Virus record (IMG/VR): IMGVR_UViG_3300035070_000507
Location: 1 to 25,315 of that record
Origin: a virus
Direction: 5' to 3' (one strand)
DNA length: 25,315 bases
In this document: one piece after another, positions 672 to 12,910 of the stretch
Layout: every line of letters begins with the position of its first letter
Position numbering within the stretch: position 1 is the first letter of the stretch
Position numbers and translations under genes: made by a program
The notes under the pieces: generated by a model
What the model saw: only the letters and a program-made list of their open reading frames with translations
What the model was told of the DNA's origin: nothing
Databases searched by the model: none

Positions 672-701
672 CAAATATACACTTTATTTTTAATTACACA
701 A
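672..701 (-). promoter_or_regulatory. Bacteroidota-type promoter for the leftmost small-gene operon
   Basis: The minus strand reads TTG (701-699), 19 bases, then TATATTTG (679-672). This matches the known Bacteroidota housekeeping-sigma promoter (-33 TTTG or TTG, spacer of about 19-21, -7 TAnnTTTG). Transcription would start near 665, about 20 bases above the ATG at 646. Confidence 0.7.
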
Positions 702-898
702 CAAAAAAAATAAAAAACTTTACAATTTAACTTTTTTTATGTATCAATACTATTTTGATGCTGTTGTAAATTTGTAACATAACTTAATAAAGGAACAAGT
801 GCGCACGTCTACAATAATTTTTTTACATACACAAATAAATTTACTATTTATTGTCAGTCTAAATAAGCTATTTAGAATCATTACAGATAACAAAAATA
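702..898. other. Non-coding, AT-rich stretch between the terminase-side repeat array and the small-gene promoter
   Basis: I see no convincing gene here. A minus-strand frame at 750..917 (55 codons) begins inside repeat copy 1, but its composition does not resemble the neighbouring genes and no promoter or coupling supports it. The palindrome GTGCGCAC at 799-806 stands out in AT-rich DNA. There is a short inverted pair ATCAA/TTGAT around 743-759. No tRNA-like cloverleaf was found. Confidence 0.5.
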
Positions 899-1011
899 CC
901 CCCATTATATTAAACATTCCCCTCCATATTAAACATAGAATTATTTTCTACCCCATCATATTAAACAAAAAAAGGGAGACAAAATTAATTGACCCCCTTC
1001 ATATTAAACAT
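899..1011 (-). repeat. Four copies of an 18-bp G-run motif (ATGTTTAATATGnnGGGG)
   Basis: On the minus strand the motif occurs at 1011-993, 967-951 (first base T instead of A), 936-919 and 917-899. Each copy has TGTTTAATAT, then three variable bases, then four or five G. Start-to-start distances are about 43, 32 and 19 bases; the last two copies are back to back. The array lies directly after the large terminase stop. Copy 4 supplies the G-run of the terminase terminator hairpin. It may be a protein-binding or packaging-recognition array; the function is unknown. Confidence 0.75.
967..999 (-). terminator. Intrinsic terminator of the terminase operon
   Basis: The minus strand reads AAGGGGG, T, CAA, loop TTAATT, TTG, T, CTCCCTT, then a T7 run. 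The arms pair with one G-T wobble and one T-T mismatch. It begins 20 bases after the large terminase stop and sits between repeat copies 4 and 3. Confidence 0.75.
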
Positions 1012-1018
1012 TTTATTT

Positions 1019-2230
1019 TTACCTTATCACATAAACTCCAGAGTTTACTCCTTGCACTAAGTACATCATACCATACCTAATAGCATCTATAAAGTGATTA
1101 AACTTATCTATTGGTGCTTCACCCTTATCCTTCCATACATAGTTGTTTAGCTCTCTTATTATACCGTGAGAACCTCTATCTACTACTATCTCATAGTCTT
1201 GCATAAGTGCAATACCAGATAATATACTACCTTTCTTCTTGATTGTAGGCTTTATGTTAAGACCCAATGTTTTTAGTTCTGATATTAAACGTGGTTCACT
1301 ATTATCACAGATAATCAAATCCATACCACACTCATTCTTATTCCTTGTAGCTACCTCAGATGTGTTTAAATGTGCTTTTCCGTAGATTTCCTTAACCCAA
1401 ACCTTTCTTGCGTGTTTATCTATAGAAATCTTCACAAGTGTCGTTAAATCGGCTGAAAACCCAAAATCCTGCCCATAGCAAGTAAGTTCTGTAGGAATAA
1501 AGTCTCCAACTCTCCATTTTCTTATAATAGTACCTTCTGCTTTCTCAAGCCAACCTCCTAATATCTGATGTTGGTATTTATCTGGTCTCTTACGTTTCAT
1601 TTCGTATATTCTCTGTAGAAACGACTGAGATAAGTTCTTCTTGTTATCCTTATAAGTTGTATGCACATAAGTAACATTACCTTTATTCATATTAGAAGCT
1701 GGTAATACGTTTTCGTTCTGAAAGAATCTTTGATATATCCAATGCTCTTTAGTTGTTGGATTAAGTATCAGTATAACTCTGTTTTGCTTAACTTGTGAAC
1801 GTATAGAGAAGTCTATCTTATCAAAAACACCTTCATCTACAAGTTCCTCTGCTTCATCGACTACAAACGTAGTTATACCATTCAAAGACTTTAAAGCAGC
1901 AGTTTGATTACCAGATGATGTCCTAATACCCTTAAATATGATAGAACTACCTGTTTTAAGGTTCATAATCTCATCTTTAGTTATCCTAAAGTCTTCGTGA
2001 ACACCCATTAGGTTAATTTTCTCAATAAATTCAGGTATAATAGATGTATGTGCTGACATCATCGTATATCTTGAGAATAAAACCTTATGCCCTACCTCAT
2101 AGGTAAGATTTAGCAAGAAAACATTGATTCCAAACGACTTTCCACTACCCCTACCTCCTGTAACAACAAAATACCTACTCTCATTCTTGAAAATAGGTAT
2201 GTATTTCTCGTGTATGTCTATCTTACTCAT
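1019..2230 (-). CDS. terL: Terminase large subunit (XtmB/Terminase_3-like)
   Basis: This is the ATP-driven DNA-packaging motor and headful or end-cutting nuclease that docks on the portal. At 403 residues it is near the usual length for this family. The N-terminal ATPase shows Walker A GGRGSGKS (25-32) and Walker B TFVVDEAEE with D125/E126. The C-terminal RNase H-like nuclease shows YGQDFGFSADLT (D255), IICDN (D309) and FNHFIDAIRYG (D382). The ATG overlaps the last 8 bases of the small-subunit gene, so the pair is probably coupled. A terminator follows the gene. The portal gene is more than 15 kb upstream in transcription order, instead of next door as in most siphoviruses. Confidence 0.96.
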   Translation of the reverse strand: MSKIDIHEKYIPIFKNESRYFVVTGGRGSGKSFGINVFLLNLTYEVGHKVLFSRYTMMSAHTSIIPEFIEKINLMGVHEDFRITKDEIMNLKTGSSIIFKGIRTSSGNQTAALKSLNGITTFVVDEAEELVDEGVFDKIDFSIRSQVKQNRVILILNPTTKEHWIYQRFFQNENVLPASNMNKGNVTYVHTTYKDNKKNLSQSFLQRIYEMKRKRPDKYQHQILGGWLEKAEGTIIRKWRVGDFIPTELTCYGQDFGFSADLTTLVKISIDKHARKVWVKEIYGKAHLNTSEVATRNKNECGMDLIICDNSEPRLISELKTLGLNIKPTIKKKGSILSGIALMQDYEIVVDRGSHGIIRELNNYVWKDKGEAPIDKFNHFIDAIRYGMMYLVQGVNSGVYVIR

Positions 2231-2642: not shown

Positions 2643-3212
2643 TTAAGCATTAATTTTATGAACCCCTTGATGGCATTTATTACAAAGAACCTCTAAATCA
2701 CCTAAACTTTCATTACCTAAACTATTGTAGTTTAAATGATGAACCTGTAAATTCTCTGTTTCAGAACATCTACTGCATTTATAATCAGAAAACTTTAACA
2801 TATTATTTCTAATAGTATTCCATTCTTTTGAGTTTAAATATTGATGATAAATGCTTTTTTTATGCCTGTCAATTAACATAACCCTTGTTGAAACATTGTA
2901 AACACATTCTTCTTGACCATCTATATTCATAGTTCCTAAACAAGTGTCTGAAGTAATATAAAATTTCCATACAACATAACTACCTTCATATTCGTTGTTA
3001 AGTACAAAAGCTACCTTTTCTAAATCAAAATTAACCGACAACAAACTTATTAATCCAGATACATCTTGTTTCTTGTCAAAACTAATATACACTTCTGATT
3101 TATTCTCATAATCAGTACTATCTATTTTAGCTAAATTCATATCAACATCTTTATCGTAATTATTAATATATTTAACTATAACATCTAATAAAGGCTTACT
3201 CACTTCTGTCAT
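2643..3212 (-). CDS. HNH endonuclease with unknown N-terminal domain
   Basis: The C-terminal third is an HNH nuclease module: YLNSKEWNTIRN (125-136), zinc-binding CSRC (C146, C149), the HH pair in VHHLNY (H158, H159), LCNKCHQGVH (C177, C180, H181, H185). The first 120 residues form a beta-rich acidic domain that I do not recognise. HNH proteins beside terminases can be packaging nucleases (as HK97 gp74) or homing-like free-standing nucleases. The position two genes from terL favours the former, but the extra N-terminal domain is unlike small packaging HNH proteins. It is probably transcribed with the methyltransferase genes upstream. Confidence 0.88.
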   Translation of the reverse strand: MTEVSKPLLDVIVKYINNYDKDVDMNLAKIDSTDYENKSEVYISFDKKQDVSGLISLLSVNFDLEKVAFVLNNEYEGSYVVWKFYITSDTCLGTMNIDGQEECVYNVSTRVMLIDRHKKSIYHQYLNSKEWNTIRNNMLKFSDYKCSRCSETENLQVHHLNYNSLGNESLGDLEVLCNKCHQGVHKINA

Positions 3213-3223
3213 TTCTTTGTTTT

Positions 3224-3541
3224 TTAGCTATAGTAATAATAGTTGTCTTGCTGACCTCTTTCCGCATCATAATAGTTCTTAGTAATCTGTATTTCGTACT
3301 CCAATAGACCAGATAAGTAACCACATAGAAAGGTAATATCCTCATCAGATAAGTCATAAACATCTTCTCCTTCTAATATGTCTATTCTTAACACCTCATT
3401 GATGTCAAGGAATAAATCTATTGTAAAATCTTCTCCTTCGTAATAGATAGAAACCTCATTTGGAAGTGGGTTAGATGAAAACCCTTCTGTTGAATATTCT
3501 GGTCTGATTGATAATATCTTGTCCTTTAGTTGTTCTTTCAT
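3224..3541 (-). CDS. Acidic protein, 105 aa, unknown function
   Basis: The 105-residue protein is strongly acidic (EGEDFTIDLFLDINEVLRID, EGEDVYDLSDEDITF) and ends in an unusual tyrosine-rich tail (DNYYYYS). Alternating beta and helix is predicted, with no membrane segment or known motif. It sits 11 bases after the methyltransferase and 11 bases before the HNH gene. It could be a DNA mimic or an accessory of its neighbours; charge is the only support for that idea. Confidence 0.75.
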   Translation of the reverse strand: MKEQLKDKILSIRPEYSTEGFSSNPLPNEVSIYYEGEDFTIDLFLDINEVLRIDILEGEDVYDLSDEDITFLCGYLSGLLEYEIQITKNYYDAERGQQDNYYYYS

Positions 3542-4578: not shown

Positions 4579-5331
4579 TTAATGATTTTTTATATTATTG
4601 TATGTAGTTATCTTGCTTTGTATGTGCTTTTTAAACTCAGTTATAGATGTTAGTTTAGGATGGTTTATTGAAGCCATATCGTCATATTCTGATATTATGT
4701 AATCCATAACATTATAATCTACATTTTCTTTACTGTAAGCAATAGCAATTAACTCTCTAATTGAAAATGCCTGTATCTTAGATTTAGTGTATTTTACTAC
4801 TAAGTTAGATAACTTTTCAAGTAAATAGTAAGCTAACTCTTCATTTTTAATATAGGCTTTACCTTTCTTGAATCTTGAAGCACTAAATTGACCAAAGAAG
4901 CAATTAATAATATTACCTACAGATAACATTTTATTATGTCTCAAATAAGCCTCATAAACAATATTGTACTCTTCATTTTCTTTCGCAAATGCTTTCAAAT
5001 AATCAACATTAGTCCAAGCCTTGTTTCCGTTGTTTAAGTTTATAATACAATCTAAGTGTTCTTTTTCTTTATCAGTGTCAATCCAATCAACTATGTAAGC
5101 TGGAATTGTTGATTGATTTAAGAATTTAGCACACTGTATTCTGTGGTGTCCTTCAATTACATCCCCTTTTGACGATATAACTATTGGCATCATCCATCCA
5201 AACTGCTTTAGCTTTAATTTAAAGTTTTCAGCGTGTTTAATAACGGTATCTCTATTTATAGATGCCATCTTTACTTCATTTAATGGGTAATAAGGATTAT
5301 AATTTCCTCTTTTAATTTCTTGATTAATCAT
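4579..5331 (-). CDS. ParB/sulfiredoxin-like protein
   Basis: The N-terminal part carries the ParB-like fold signature: PLNEVKMASINRD (16-28), MMPIVISSKGDVIEGHHRI (47-65) with the GHHR form of the GxxR box at 61-64, and a following CAKFL helix. In phages such domains are often found next to DNA methyltransferases and may bind CTP or act as nucleases or DNA-binding modules. The remaining 150 residues are helical and unrecognised. It is the first gene after a consensus promoter (5373-5402). This makes it the leader of the ParB, methyltransferase, HNH and terminase unit. Confidence 0.88.
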   Translation of the reverse strand: MINQEIKRGNYNPYYPLNEVKMASINRDTVIKHAENFKLKLKQFGWMMPIVISSKGDVIEGHHRIQCAKFLNQSTIPAYIVDWIDTDKEKEHLDCIINLNNGNKAWTNVDYLKAFAKENEEYNIVYEAYLRHNKMLSVGNIINCFFGQFSASRFKKGKAYIKNEELAYYLLEKLSNLVVKYTKSKIQAFSIRELIAIAYSKENVDYNVMDYIISEYDDMASINHPKLTSITEFKKHIQSKITTYNNIKNH

Positions 5332-5372
5332 TTTGTTTTGTTTTTAATTATTAATATTATTTTGTTATGAGA

Positions 5373-5402
5373 CAAATCTACAATACTTTTTTAGATTGAC
5401 AA
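5373..5402 (-). promoter_or_regulatory. Bacteroidota-type promoter for the ParB/methylase/terminase unit
   Basis: The minus strand reads TTG (5402-5400), 19 bases, TAGATTTG (5380-5373), a full match to the TTG-19-TAnnTTTG type. Expected transcription start is near 5366, about 35 bases before the ParB-like ATG. It lies between the terminator/33-bp repeat and the gene. Confidence 0.8.
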
Positions 5403-5410
5403 TACTTTTT
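5381..5410 (-). repeat. Tandem 11-bp repeat AAAAAGTATTG overlapping the promoter
   Basis: AAAAAGTATTG occurs on the minus strand at 5410-5400 and 5391-5381, 19 bases apart. The first copy ends in the -33 TTG and the second directly abuts the -7 box. This placement is what an operator would have. The regulator is unknown. Confidence 0.6.
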
Positions 5411-5417
5411 AACAAAT

Positions 5418-5450
5418 TTTAACATTTCTTTAACATTTCTTTAACATTTA
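5418..5450. repeat. Left copy of a 33-bp perfect inverted repeat (11-bp units)
   Basis: This segment is the exact reverse complement of 12961-12993. Inside it, CATTTCTTTAA-type units recur every 11 bases, about one helical turn. It lies between the terminator of the DUF3310 gene and the promoter of the ParB-like gene. Confidence 0.85.
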
Positions 5451-5454
5451 AACT

Positions 5455-5481
5455 AAAAAAGGAAGCTAATTAGCCTCCCTT
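5455..5481 (-). terminator. Intrinsic terminator at the end of the DNA-metabolism module
   Basis: The minus strand reads AAGGGAGGCT, AATT loop, AGCTTCCTTT followed by further T. The stem of about 10 pairs includes the last codons and stop of the DUF3310 gene. It ends the long operon just before the ParB promoter. Confidence 0.8.
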
Positions 5482-5669
5482 AATAGTTCTATCTCTCTCT
5501 CTAAGTAATCCTTTGCTTTAATCAAGTCAAGCAATTCATCTTGTTTCTTACCTGCTCTTGCAACATACTTAATGATATTACCTCTACAGAAGTTCAAGTC
5601 GTAATCCCTTATAACATCTATAATGTCATAGTCTTTACCATTCTCGTAATGTGGTTGTGTGCCTCTCAT
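5466..5669 (-). CDS. DUF3310 small protein
   Basis: The 67-aa protein matches the DUF3310 pattern: QPHYENGKDYDIIDVI (5-20), then FCRGNIIKYVARAGKK (27-42) and a helix with DLIKAKDYLEREI. The family is widespread in phages and is sometimes labelled nucleotide kinase on thin evidence. Its true role is unsettled, though it usually lies among nucleotide and replication genes, as here. It is the last gene of the long DNA-metabolism operon; its stop codon is within the terminator hairpin. Confidence 0.9.
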   Translation of the reverse strand: MRGTQPHYENGKDYDIIDVIRDYDLNFCRGNIIKYVARAGKKQDELLDLIKAKDYLEREIELLREAN

Positions 5670-5756: not shown

Positions 5757-6305
5757 TTATACTAGAAATGAACTTCCTAAATCAGACTCGCCTTGTATTA
5801 TCTGACATTTATCTTTATTCTTCCAGCTCCAAGATTTAATCCTTAAACTAACAATCTCTCTTACCTCATCCCTTTTGTCTTGTGGAACGCTATCTATAAG
5901 GATGTCTAAGCTATCTTTACCCTTGTTTAGTATGTTTGTATGTAAGTTCTGTTTAACGTCTTTAATCGCCTTCTTTTGAGTCTGCTCTATTGACAGAAAC
6001 TCTTCAGCTCTATCATTAAAGTAAATATTATATCTGTTTCTAAATACTGCATAAGACTTGTAGTAAATACCTATCTTATGTAAAGCGTGGGTTATAGATG
6101 AACGACCTTTATTAACTCCTCTTAACTCAAACCATTCTGAAATCATCCTATCATTCATAAAGTTTAAATCCTTTAGAATCTTATAGAAAAGTGTTCTGGT
6201 AATCATTATCTCTGTTTCCCTTGAATCACTATTTAACTGTATTCCTGTTAACTGTTCAAAGTCTCTTGCTAATTCGTCTGCATTATCTTTATTGTATCCT
6301 AACAT
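5757..6305 (-). CDS. DnaA domain IV-like DNA-binding protein (replication initiator candidate)
   Basis: Residues about 29-85 resemble the C-terminal DNA-binding domain of DnaA: a helix with ITRTLFYKILKDL, then a segment with GRSSITHALHKI (67-78). The latter is comparable to the GRDHSTVLHACRKI signature that reads DnaA boxes. There is no AAA+ ATPase domain in its 182 residues. The second half is helical and charged, ending GESDLGSSFLV. Among phages such short proteins may bind an origin or recruit replication factors; that function is inferred. It lies between a small acidic protein and DUF3310 in the DNA-metabolism operon. Confidence 0.65.
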   Translation of the reverse strand: MLGYNKDNADELARDFEQLTGIQLNSDSRETEIMITRTLFYKILKDLNFMNDRMISEWFELRGVNKGRSSITHALHKIGIYYKSYAVFRNRYNIYFNDRAEEFLSIEQTQKKAIKDVKQNLHTNILNKGKDSLDILIDSVPQDKRDEVREIVSLRIKSWSWKNKDKCQIIQGESDLGSSFLV

Positions 6306-7473: not shown

Positions 7474-7950
7474 GTATTTTTTTAATTTATTTACAATTCC
7501 TATAACACAAGGTTTGCAACTTGTGTATTTCTGATTAGTATTGAAAACGTTATTATGAATAGATACTAACCTTTTTCTTTGCTCAGAAGTAGTTTTATGA
7601 GGATTACTACTGAAGAAATCACTTAGGTAAGCATAATCATTTTCTGATATACAGTTTATCTTTTTGTAGCTAAACAACTTATTTAACTGAACTTGTCTAT
7701 CATCACAACCACAATCTTCACCAGCTATAAATTTAACTAACTTGTCTACTCCTGTAGCTTTAGTAATCTTAGCCACTGTATCACCTACACCTTTTGATTG
7801 TGTTTCTACATTCTGCTTTAACTTATTATAGCCTTCACTTCTCTTAGATGCTTTCCATTCTTTGTACTCTCTGTAATCTTTAGACCTTTTGTCTATAGTT
7901 TCGTAGTACCCTTGTTTCTCTAATTCTAAATAATAATTATCTGGTCTCAT
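7456..7950 (-). CDS. Conserved phage protein with CGCDDR motif, 164 aa
   Basis: The N-terminal half is charged and helical (YREYKEWKASKRSEGYNKL). The middle has a distinctive block: GDTVAKITKATGVDKLVKF, then GEDCGCDDR (77-85) and LNKLFSYKKINC. The C terminus has a second Cys pair (SCKPC, near 144-148). I recall similar GEDCGCD...LNKLFPYK blocks in proteins of Bacteroidota phages, without a known function. The paired cysteines could bind a metal. It is translationally coupled to the sigma-like gene (ATGA overlap), which may hint at a shared regulatory role. Confidence 0.8.
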   Translation of the reverse strand: MRPDNYYLELEKQGYYETIDKRSKDYREYKEWKASKRSEGYNKLKQNVETQSKGVGDTVAKITKATGVDKLVKFIAGEDCGCDDRQVQLNKLFSYKKINCISENDYAYLSDFFSSNPHKTTSEQRKRLVSIHNNVFNTNQKYTSCKPCVIGIVNKLKKYLEVYK

Positions 7951-8477
7951 ATCTTGTCAAAATCTTGGTTAAAGTAATCTAATAAATCCTCTGATAAATG
8001 TTCTTTTAATATAGCTTTGTGGTTTAGTATAGAATTGTGTATTGATGTTAAGCCTATGTTAGCACCTTTAGATATTGCTCTTAATGATAAACCTTGTATA
8101 AAGTAAAGTTCAAACAACCTTTTATCATAAACACTCCACTCTGATATTATCTCTCTTACTTGAGTCATTATATTACTGAAAGCATCATCCTCTTCCATAT
8201 TGTACTCTGACTGAACAACTTCATCGTTTTCTAATATCCTATAGAAGATACTACCCATTTCTTTCTTTAGGTGAGAATAGTATAAGTTTCTTAATGTTTT
8301 CCATATAAAATACCTATTTATATCTCCCTTATACATTATTCTCTCAGGGTCTTTAACAAGTCTATGAACTCTTAAATACATATCTTGAACTAAGTCTTTA
8401 GCAAGGTTTATATCGCATCCTAAGTTCACAAGCATCTTAATCCATAACTCTTGATGAACTGCTATTTTTTCTAACAT
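7947..8477 (-). CDS. RNA polymerase sigma-70-like (ECF type) factor
   Basis: The 176-aa protein has the two-domain layout of small sigma factors. A region-2-like helix bundle spans roughly residues 8-72, with INLAKDLVQDMYLRVHR and INRYFIWKTLRNLYYSHLKK (compare the A..L.Q.vF...w / ylyriarN...d pattern). An acidic linker follows. Region 4 (about 116-160) has YDKRLFELYFIQGLSLRAISKGANIGLTSIHNSI as a helix-turn-helix. It may redirect host RNA polymerase to phage promoters. Resemblance to phage small terminase or other HTH proteins is a weaker alternative. It overlaps genes on both sides by 1-4 bases. Confidence 0.8.
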   Translation of the reverse strand: MLEKIAVHQELWIKMLVNLGCDINLAKDLVQDMYLRVHRLVKDPERIMYKGDINRYFIWKTLRNLYYSHLKKEMGSIFYRILENDEVVQSEYNMEEDDAFSNIMTQVREIISEWSVYDKRLFELYFIQGLSLRAISKGANIGLTSIHNSILNHKAILKEHLSEDLLDYFNQDFDKI

Positions 8478-11846: not shown

Positions 11847-12392
11847 TTATTTAATTAAGATTTGTTTAACTTGTTTTGACATAGTGTATCTTGCTTCTAC
11901 TGCTTCCATAGAACCACCATCCTTTAAATACTTCTTTACTTTATCGAACTCAGTACTTGTTTGAGTTAATGTAGTTTTAGCGTTCTTAGAGTGATTATTT
12001 GTAGCATCACTATCTTTAGTATCATCTATCAATAATAAGTTCCCTAAAGCGTATTTCTTAGCGTAAGAAGATGCTGCTCCTGTTCTCTGTGGCATTTGCA
12101 TACCTTTAGCTTGGAAGTCTATAATGGCTTGTGCGGTAGAAGATACTGAACTCTCTCTATCTATTGATTCAATGTCAATAATCTTAGCTTCTGAATCTAC
12201 ATAAATGTGTTCTCCTACTTGAACTAACTTATCATTAATCTTAAATAGTACTTTATACTTGTCTTCAAATGGCTTAACAGATTCTAAGATGTCTTCTGCT
12301 GAACGATACTTGTACTTTCCAAACGCATTTGTTTGTGCTTTAGAAACTTTTAACTCTAATTGAATCTTCTGTAGTTTTTCTAAAATTGTCAT
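11847..12392 (-). CDS. ERF-family ssDNA annealing protein
   Basis: ERF proteins anneal complementary single strands in phage recombination. Diagnostic blocks are visible: KAQTNAFGKYKYRSAEDIL (about 19-37), and MPQRTGAASSYAKKYALGNLLLIDD (about 99-123), which holds the family's tG.a.sYakRYaL motif. A low-complexity linker follows (DSDATNNHSKNAKTTLTQTS), then a small C-terminal helical domain. The 181-aa length is typical. The gene lies just upstream of the SSB gene, the usual partner. Confidence 0.92.
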   Translation of the reverse strand: MTILEKLQKIQLELKVSKAQTNAFGKYKYRSAEDILESVKPFEDKYKVLFKINDKLVQVGEHIYVDSEAKIIDIESIDRESSVSSTAQAIIDFQAKGMQMPQRTGAASSYAKKYALGNLLLIDDTKDSDATNNHSKNAKTTLTQTSTEFDKVKKYLKDGGSMEAVEARYTMSKQVKQILIK

Positions 12393-12572: not shown

Positions 12573-12755
12573 TTATTCGTTTATGTTTACGTTTAATCCT
12601 AAGTAGTTTCTTGTGCCTCTCGCTGGTATCTTAACTTGGTAGTTAATTCTAATGTCAGTTAAATTACTGTCTTGTTCTAAGTGATATTCAATCTGTTTCT
12701 TTAACTTCTCCCAAGCAGAGTCGTTTATCTTCGTAGTACTTTCCATTGTTTCCAA
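12573..12755 (-). CDS. Small protein, 60 aa, unknown function
   Basis: It starts METMESTTKINDSAWEKLKKQ, has an amphipathic helix, then strands TDIRINYQVKIPARGTRNYLGLNVNINE. It overlaps the 3' end of the zinc-ribbon gene by 31 bases; a second ATG at 12746 would shorten this to 22. It is followed closely by the 57-aa gene, in the same operon. Unrecognised. Confidence 0.65.
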   Translation of the reverse strand: METMESTTKINDSAWEKLKKQIEYHLEQDSNLTDIRINYQVKIPARGTRNYLGLNVNINE

Positions 12756-12910
12756 AAGTTTTTAAGTTTGTTGGTAAATGATTTACTTGTTTCATTACAC
12801 ACCTGTTCTTTAATTTTTTCCCAAATAACAAAGTCAGCGTGTTGTTTACATCTGTTGCAAATATCGGTTTCCCATAATCTACTTGCACCACAACAATTTG
12901 ATTTTTCCAT
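12725..12910 (-). CDS. Zinc-ribbon small protein, 61 aa
   Basis: The N terminus carries a two-pair cysteine ribbon: NCCGASRLWETDICNRCKQHADF, with C6/C7 and C18/C21. This CCGA...C..C..HADF form is common in small phage proteins and most likely binds zinc. The rest is basic and helical (KSFTNKLKNFWKQWKV). It is the first gene of the DNA-metabolism operon, just after the -7 box at 12936-12943. An overlapping frame (12688..12891) is rejected because only this one has the ribbon. Confidence 0.75.
   Translation of the reverse strand: MEKSNCCGASRLWETDICNRCKQHADFVIWEKIKEQVCNETSKSFTNKLKNFWKQWKVLRR

Follow-up and report, generated by a model that had tools for sequence, protein, structure and literature searches.

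The intergenic repeat arrays described here follow the ends of transcription units, are built from a conserved unit and act as seams for recombination. We tentatively interpret them as boundary elements of transcription units, in which a terminator is combined with a tandem recognition site for a putative reader and which double as recombination seams. We infer that the core of the repeat is the recognition site and would be read by a putative factor at the ends of transcription units. The starting point was a window of 25,315 nucleotides, i.e. the whole stretch of DNA that was analysed. It is an IMG/VR virus contig with its genes on the minus strand according to the ORF list and the annotation. 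Structural genes are followed by genes for replication and recombination including one for an ERF protein (11847-12392), by the small and large terminase subunits and then by small genes.

Four minus-strand copies of TGTTTAATATNNNGGGG were located at 900-1010, directly past the gene of the terminase large subunit (terL) on its coding strand. terL (1019-2230, minus strand; ORF list and annotation) is the last gene of the preceding transcription unit. With up to two mismatches allowed, four copies in the window compare with a mean of 0.25 in shuffled sequences, and none of 100 shuffles reached four. Thus the four-copy repeat reported in the initial annotation is real, and its unequal spacing was borne out by start-to-start distances of 43, 32 and 19 nt. 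The copies themselves were as annotated, while the consensus had to be corrected slightly to TGTTTAATATNNNGGGG, from which two copies deviate: copy 2 is without the leading A, and copy 4 carries an A after ATAT where the other copies have a G. A motif scan of the whole window found no fifth copy.

Unit 1 (TGTTTAATATGAAGGGG, 994-1010, minus strand) starts 8 nt past the terL stop codon. The terminase operon ends in an intrinsic terminator hairpin whose left arm is formed by the G-run of unit 1, and the annotated overlap of one copy with this terminator was thereby confirmed. The hairpin (971-1000, minus strand; head A) consists of AAGGGGGTCAATTAATTTTGTCTCCCTT followed by a T-tract and has a folding energy of -13.9 kcal/mol with a z-score of -3.3. 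Unit 2 (TGTTTAATATGATGGGG, 951-967, minus strand) lies immediately 3' of the T-tract; unit 3 (TGTTTAATATGGAGGGG, 919-935) and unit 4 (TGTTTAATATAATGGGG, 900-916), both on the minus strand, were assigned by the motif scan. RNA folding of copies 2-4 gave no structure beyond that of shuffled sequences (z -0.22). Past the array follows an AT-rich leader (702-899, minus strand), the first part of which corresponds to tail B, the sequence that follows the second array in two-array relatives (see below). The next transcription unit has a host-type promoter, TTG-N19-TATATTTG (672-701, minus strand), which was recognized by its sequence and whose consensus is common behind arrays. The first small gene of this unit is listed as an open frame at 479-682 on the minus strand. 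We placed it at 479-646, because the ATG at 646 appears to match the promoter better than the start of the listed frame.

Two open frames run over the array (799-1080, plus strand; 750-917, minus strand), and they look spurious because the distances between units are not divisible by three. Coding repeats were ruled out on the same grounds, and the earlier statement that no gene accounts for the repeats stands. A G-quadruplex was also dismissed, since the 15 to 38 nt between the G-runs exceed the distances typical of such structures.

In the relatives the unit consists of a 10-bp core, a 3-nt gap and a G-run, at times replaced by a C-run. Among 442 distinct array units defined by their core, a G-run is present in 344 and a C-run in 72, while 26 have no run of either kind. 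Conservation was assessed with unit 2 in 43 contexts, which were found solely via the preceding terminator, so that the motif did not select itself. Core and G-run were near-invariant; the 3-nt gap and the linker were variable. Conservation of the repeats among relatives, a check proposed in the initial annotation, was thereby confirmed. Unit starts are most commonly 19 nt apart, followed by 43, 36, 45, 25 and 17 nt. Arithmetic on these spacings revealed no common helical phase, which argues against cooperative binding on one face of the DNA.

Where a unit with a G-run precedes one with a C-run, the bases flanking the runs are complementary in excess, a value that was reached in 19 of 2000 permutations. 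The same permutation test showed no excess for G-G, C-C and C-G neighbours. Some of the G-run/C-run pairs resemble terminators with the core as the loop, e.g. in genome G013 at 2482. RNA folding differs between arrays. It is strong in L015 and G021 and absent from copies 2-4 of the window, and the latter led us to discard uniform RNA folding as a property of arrays.

Distant relatives have other cores in the same place, namely TCTTAAACATAGTAGGGG (L077-L084), CTTTTATTATGGAGGGG (L051) and TCTTTGTTATGGAGG (L024, L031-L034). The layout is retained with the lineage cores TGTTTAATAT, TCTTAAACAT, CTTTTATTAT and TCTTTGTTAT. Cores of the types CTTTTATTAT, TCTTTGTTAT and TCTTAAACAT were noted in L051 past terL, in L024 and L031-L034, in L077-L084 and in G012. 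Sites with another core are located in G012 at 579, 12690-12771 and 28035, and at two further gene ends of this genome a TCTTAAACATAGTA motif includes the stop codon TAA.

All of the results rest on contigs from metagenomes, including many fragments and some near-duplicates; each distinct sequence was counted once, yet the counts are not independent, and genes are uncurated open frames. In 124 of 148 distinct arrays an open frame (50 codons or more) ended within the 90 nt before the array as compared with 205 of 985 random positions. Two distances from the stop codon stand out sharply, with 47 arrays at 2 nt and 24 arrays at 8 nt. A terminator-like hairpin with a T-run was present at the start of 47 of 107 arrays and in none of 107 control stretches; the remaining 60 had no hairpin terminator by the criteria used. 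The form of an intrinsic terminator is thus seen in these array starts and in unit 1 of the window, not in units 2-4. The promoter consensus of Bacteroidetes is TTG-N18-20-TAnnTTTG. Host-type promoters were found within 480 nt downstream of 65 of the 107 arrays as opposed to 4.05 in shuffled sequences and 8 in the upstream control, mostly at a distance of 150-400 nt. From hairpins and promoters we concluded that an array separates the end of a transcription unit from the promoter that serves the following one.

It is the end of the transcription unit that the array trails and not terL, as other sequence or genes intervene between terL and array in L012, L029 and L051. Arrays concentrate between terL and the structural operon, and some genomes have a third array ahead of the latter. 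Many other gaps in array-bearing genomes contain plain terminators and no array. Thus the array is dispensable for termination in general. In the leader past some arrays we noticed a G+C-rich block (GGGTAGGACGGAGTCTACTC...) that looks structured (L025 at 7600-7680, L042 after 5560).

Among 80 loci with a terminase relative, an array was present in most of those whose DNA reaches past terL, and the motif matches were on the terL strand in every case. In larger contigs all array units are on a single strand. Many relatives carry further arrays beyond that of the terminase operon. A contig carries about 4 to 14 cores, clustered at one to five intergenic sites, some of which are about 10 kb away from terL. 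A pattern of two adjacent units matched in a scan of IMG/VR, among the matches listed. A scan of 84,980 bacterial and archaeal species, each represented by one genome, gave two matches to this pattern, in a Prevotella and in a Saccharibacteria MAG, which we took as chance. A blastn search of GenBank phages with the motif yielded nothing convincing, Rfam covariance models had no match in the window at E-values up to 0.1, and a literature search on intergenic repeats of flavobacterial phages turned up no matching element. The nearest isolate is phage P12024S with a terL identity of 51%; its intergenic gaps are free of such units. Genes for capsid, protease, tape-measure protein and a sigma-like protein and further genes are common to almost all array-bearing genomes examined. 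Because of these shared genes we assign the genomes to one broad lineage, that of uncultured marine Bacteroidetes-type phages.

Genomes with two arrays provided access to the history of the arrays. Here array A past terL precedes a small operon, equipped with a promoter and a terminator of its own, and array B follows. The content of the operon is variable, with one gene family present in 9 of 9 scored. The sequences downstream of the two arrays are distinct and are referred to as tail A and tail B. Classing by patterns of head and tail showed that 7 two-array loci read A-A, B-B, and the same was seen by eye in L101 and L109. Twelve single-array loci including the window read A-B, i.e. the head of the first array is joined to the tail of the second. 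The arrangement B-A did not occur among the classed loci; the remaining loci were unclassable by the patterns used or ended too early.

Three pairs of a single-array and a two-array locus were compared base by base (L042 with L040, L041 with L101, and L014 with L013). In each pair the single array matches array A as far as a particular unit and switches to array B at that unit, so that the crossover lies inside it. On the terL tree the array state switches at least six times, including across well supported branches, a count that refers to this tree only, as terL and array may recombine separately. It is through recombination between the repeat units of neighbouring arrays that whole transcription units have been lost or gained. 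Small genes on the opposite strand lie between the units of some arrays (L009 at 5281-5541, L076 at 5344-5604, L059 at 5252-5548, L060 at 1684-1833 and L030 at 3301-3495). Their start codons are 8-35 nt away from a unit, and they are possibly insertions into the array.

The mechanism that we propose builds on the position of an array, which starts a few nucleotides past the last stop codon of a transcription unit, often over or after an intrinsic terminator, and upstream of the next promoter. Its conserved core would be the recognition site for a putative factor that ends or insulates transcription. This factor may act as a roadblock at the DNA level or via a signal at the 3' end of the transcript, in either case backing up the hairpin terminator. 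A stoperator-like DNA roadblock, an RNA signal or a back-up of the terminator would each fit the placement. Arrays would double as seams because those of one genome have their direct repeats in common. Homologous recombination at the arrays, for which the phage encodes an ERF annealing protein, would remove or exchange intact units of promoter, genes and terminator and leave the genes unbroken. This outcome could be a passive result of the direct repeats. A more far-reaching version of the proposal is possible, though doubtful. In it a stop-associated system would rely on a lineage-specific core that is read at transcript ends by a co-evolving, predicted phage factor; termination or insulation would do without a hairpin, and the tandem sites would let intact units swap between phages.

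Several known elements share features with the arrays. The PeSL mobile regulatory cassettes of T4-type phages (Arbiol 2010) reportedly comprise an early promoter together with a stem-loop. By description, PeSL cassettes and morons are like the arrays in that a common intergenic sequence marks the place where self-contained gene modules are exchanged. The present loci differ from PeSL by description in that promoter and terminator in many cases flank a separate tandem array, which is an extra element and holds the crossover. REP/BIME elements of enterobacteria are short repeats just past genes which occur in small arrays and in part form hairpins. Array units are likewise short, sit behind genes in small arrays and sometimes form hairpins. 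Yet REP units are palindromic, longer and chromosomal, whereas the array units are asymmetric and phage-borne.

The SAS/ESAS elements of Cluster K mycobacteriophages are located 3-7 bp ahead of start codons and look like elements of the ribosome site (PMC3203893). Like the array units they are specific to a phage group, locked to a gene boundary within a few bases, in one orientation and edged by GGG/CCC. For a position-locked repeat, SAS elements are the nearest analogue. Yet SAS mark starts, while the arrays mark stops, being tandem, 2-8 nt past stop codons and at the ends of transcription units. The stoperators of Cluster A mycobacteriophages are short, asymmetric, intergenic and in one orientation relative to transcription; they have a lineage-specific consensus, are absent from the hosts and are bound by the phage immunity repressor, which halts elongation (PMC9283540, PMC6550527). 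Array units share shortness, asymmetry, intergenic location, single orientation, a lineage-specific core and absence from hosts. On the other hand, stoperators are 20 or more scattered single sites of 13 bp, while the arrays are a few tandem clusters past stop codons with units of 17 bp and a G- or C-run, and in contrast to stoperator phages no repressor or lysogeny gene was found here. We therefore filed the arrays under none of stoperators, SAS and PeSL/morons, but as a variant resembling them.

The likeness to stoperators raises the question of an operator array for a stoperator-like phage regulator, a role that the initial annotation had also listed. Here a phage protein on oriented, asymmetric sites would halt elongation or control the downstream operon and co-evolve with the core. 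The traits of the sites agree with those of stoperators (PMC9283540, PMC6550527), and genes for a sigma-like protein, terS and p164, which are candidates only, occur in nearly every array-bearing genome in which the region is covered. We consider this rather unlikely, as the sites gather in a few tandem arrays and are not scattered among numerous intergenic spaces, and as the downstream promoter, mostly 150-400 bp off, is too far for a simple operator. Furthermore, no repressor was identified, and a search for integrase and resolvase found neither, hence there is no sign of lysogeny. Unlikely, too, is that tandem direct repeats are kept and spread merely by recombining, without a reader, as a selfish or neutral seam at a tolerant spot. 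Clear recombination between arrays, genes inserted between units and the sharing of arrays among positions within one genome agree with such passive repeats. Yet these do not account for the conservation of core and G-run alongside a drifting gap and drifting linkers in the same units, for the retention of the layout with a different core in distant relatives or for the lock to stop codons.

The sigma-like protein encoded in the window at 7947-8477 (phrog_1740, E 5e-7) and common to nearly all array-bearing genomes would make sense if each unit were a promoter for this factor with the G-run near the start point. We regard this as very improbable, because adjacent promoters at a spacing of 19 nt would clash, the downstream transcription units are already served by host-type promoters and 72 of 442 units have a C-run in place of the G-run. 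Equally improbable is a recognition array for packaging (pac) or a set of replication origin iterons, roles that the initial annotation had suggested. The array adjoins terL in many genomes, the DNA is AT-rich with direct repeats, and several genomes have the peak of their detrended cumulative GC skew at the array or close to it. The peak was no more than a few hundred bases from the array past terL in G001, G004, G005, G007 and G014. However, the array stays at the end of the transcription unit when other sequence parts it from terL, the number of array sites in a genome reaches about four or five, and complete-looking genomes start at different genes. This indirect evidence led us to set the packaging role aside. 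For an origin the support is weak at best, as the skew peak is about 2 kb from the array in G013, G015, G019 and G021. In G014 the opposite extreme is only about 5.5 kb away; therefore a skew peak near an array is probably a sign that the accessory-gene region begins there.

Further genes were inspected as well. The protein encoded at 5757-6305 in the window resembles the DNA-binding domain of DnaA in its C-terminal part by eye, with no match in Pfam; as a binder of the array it was discarded, because it is found in only part of the array-bearing genomes. A search for single-subunit RNA polymerase gave no match, but neither did control genomes, thus this is no evidence of absence. Beside the small terminase gene an HNH-endonuclease-like gene was recognized by eye (2643-3212); none of the 21 other genomes used for comparison has a homologue.

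If the interpretation of the arrays as boundary elements and recombination seams is right, they would show concretely, at the level of sequence, how phages evolve in modules, with transcription units lost or gained intact. The crossovers are traceable to one repeat roughly 20 bp long, and a single phage group shows at least six switches. Moreover, the arrays would point to a factor that reads the ends of transcription units in uncultured marine phages, and their lineage-specific cores make the search for this reader testable.
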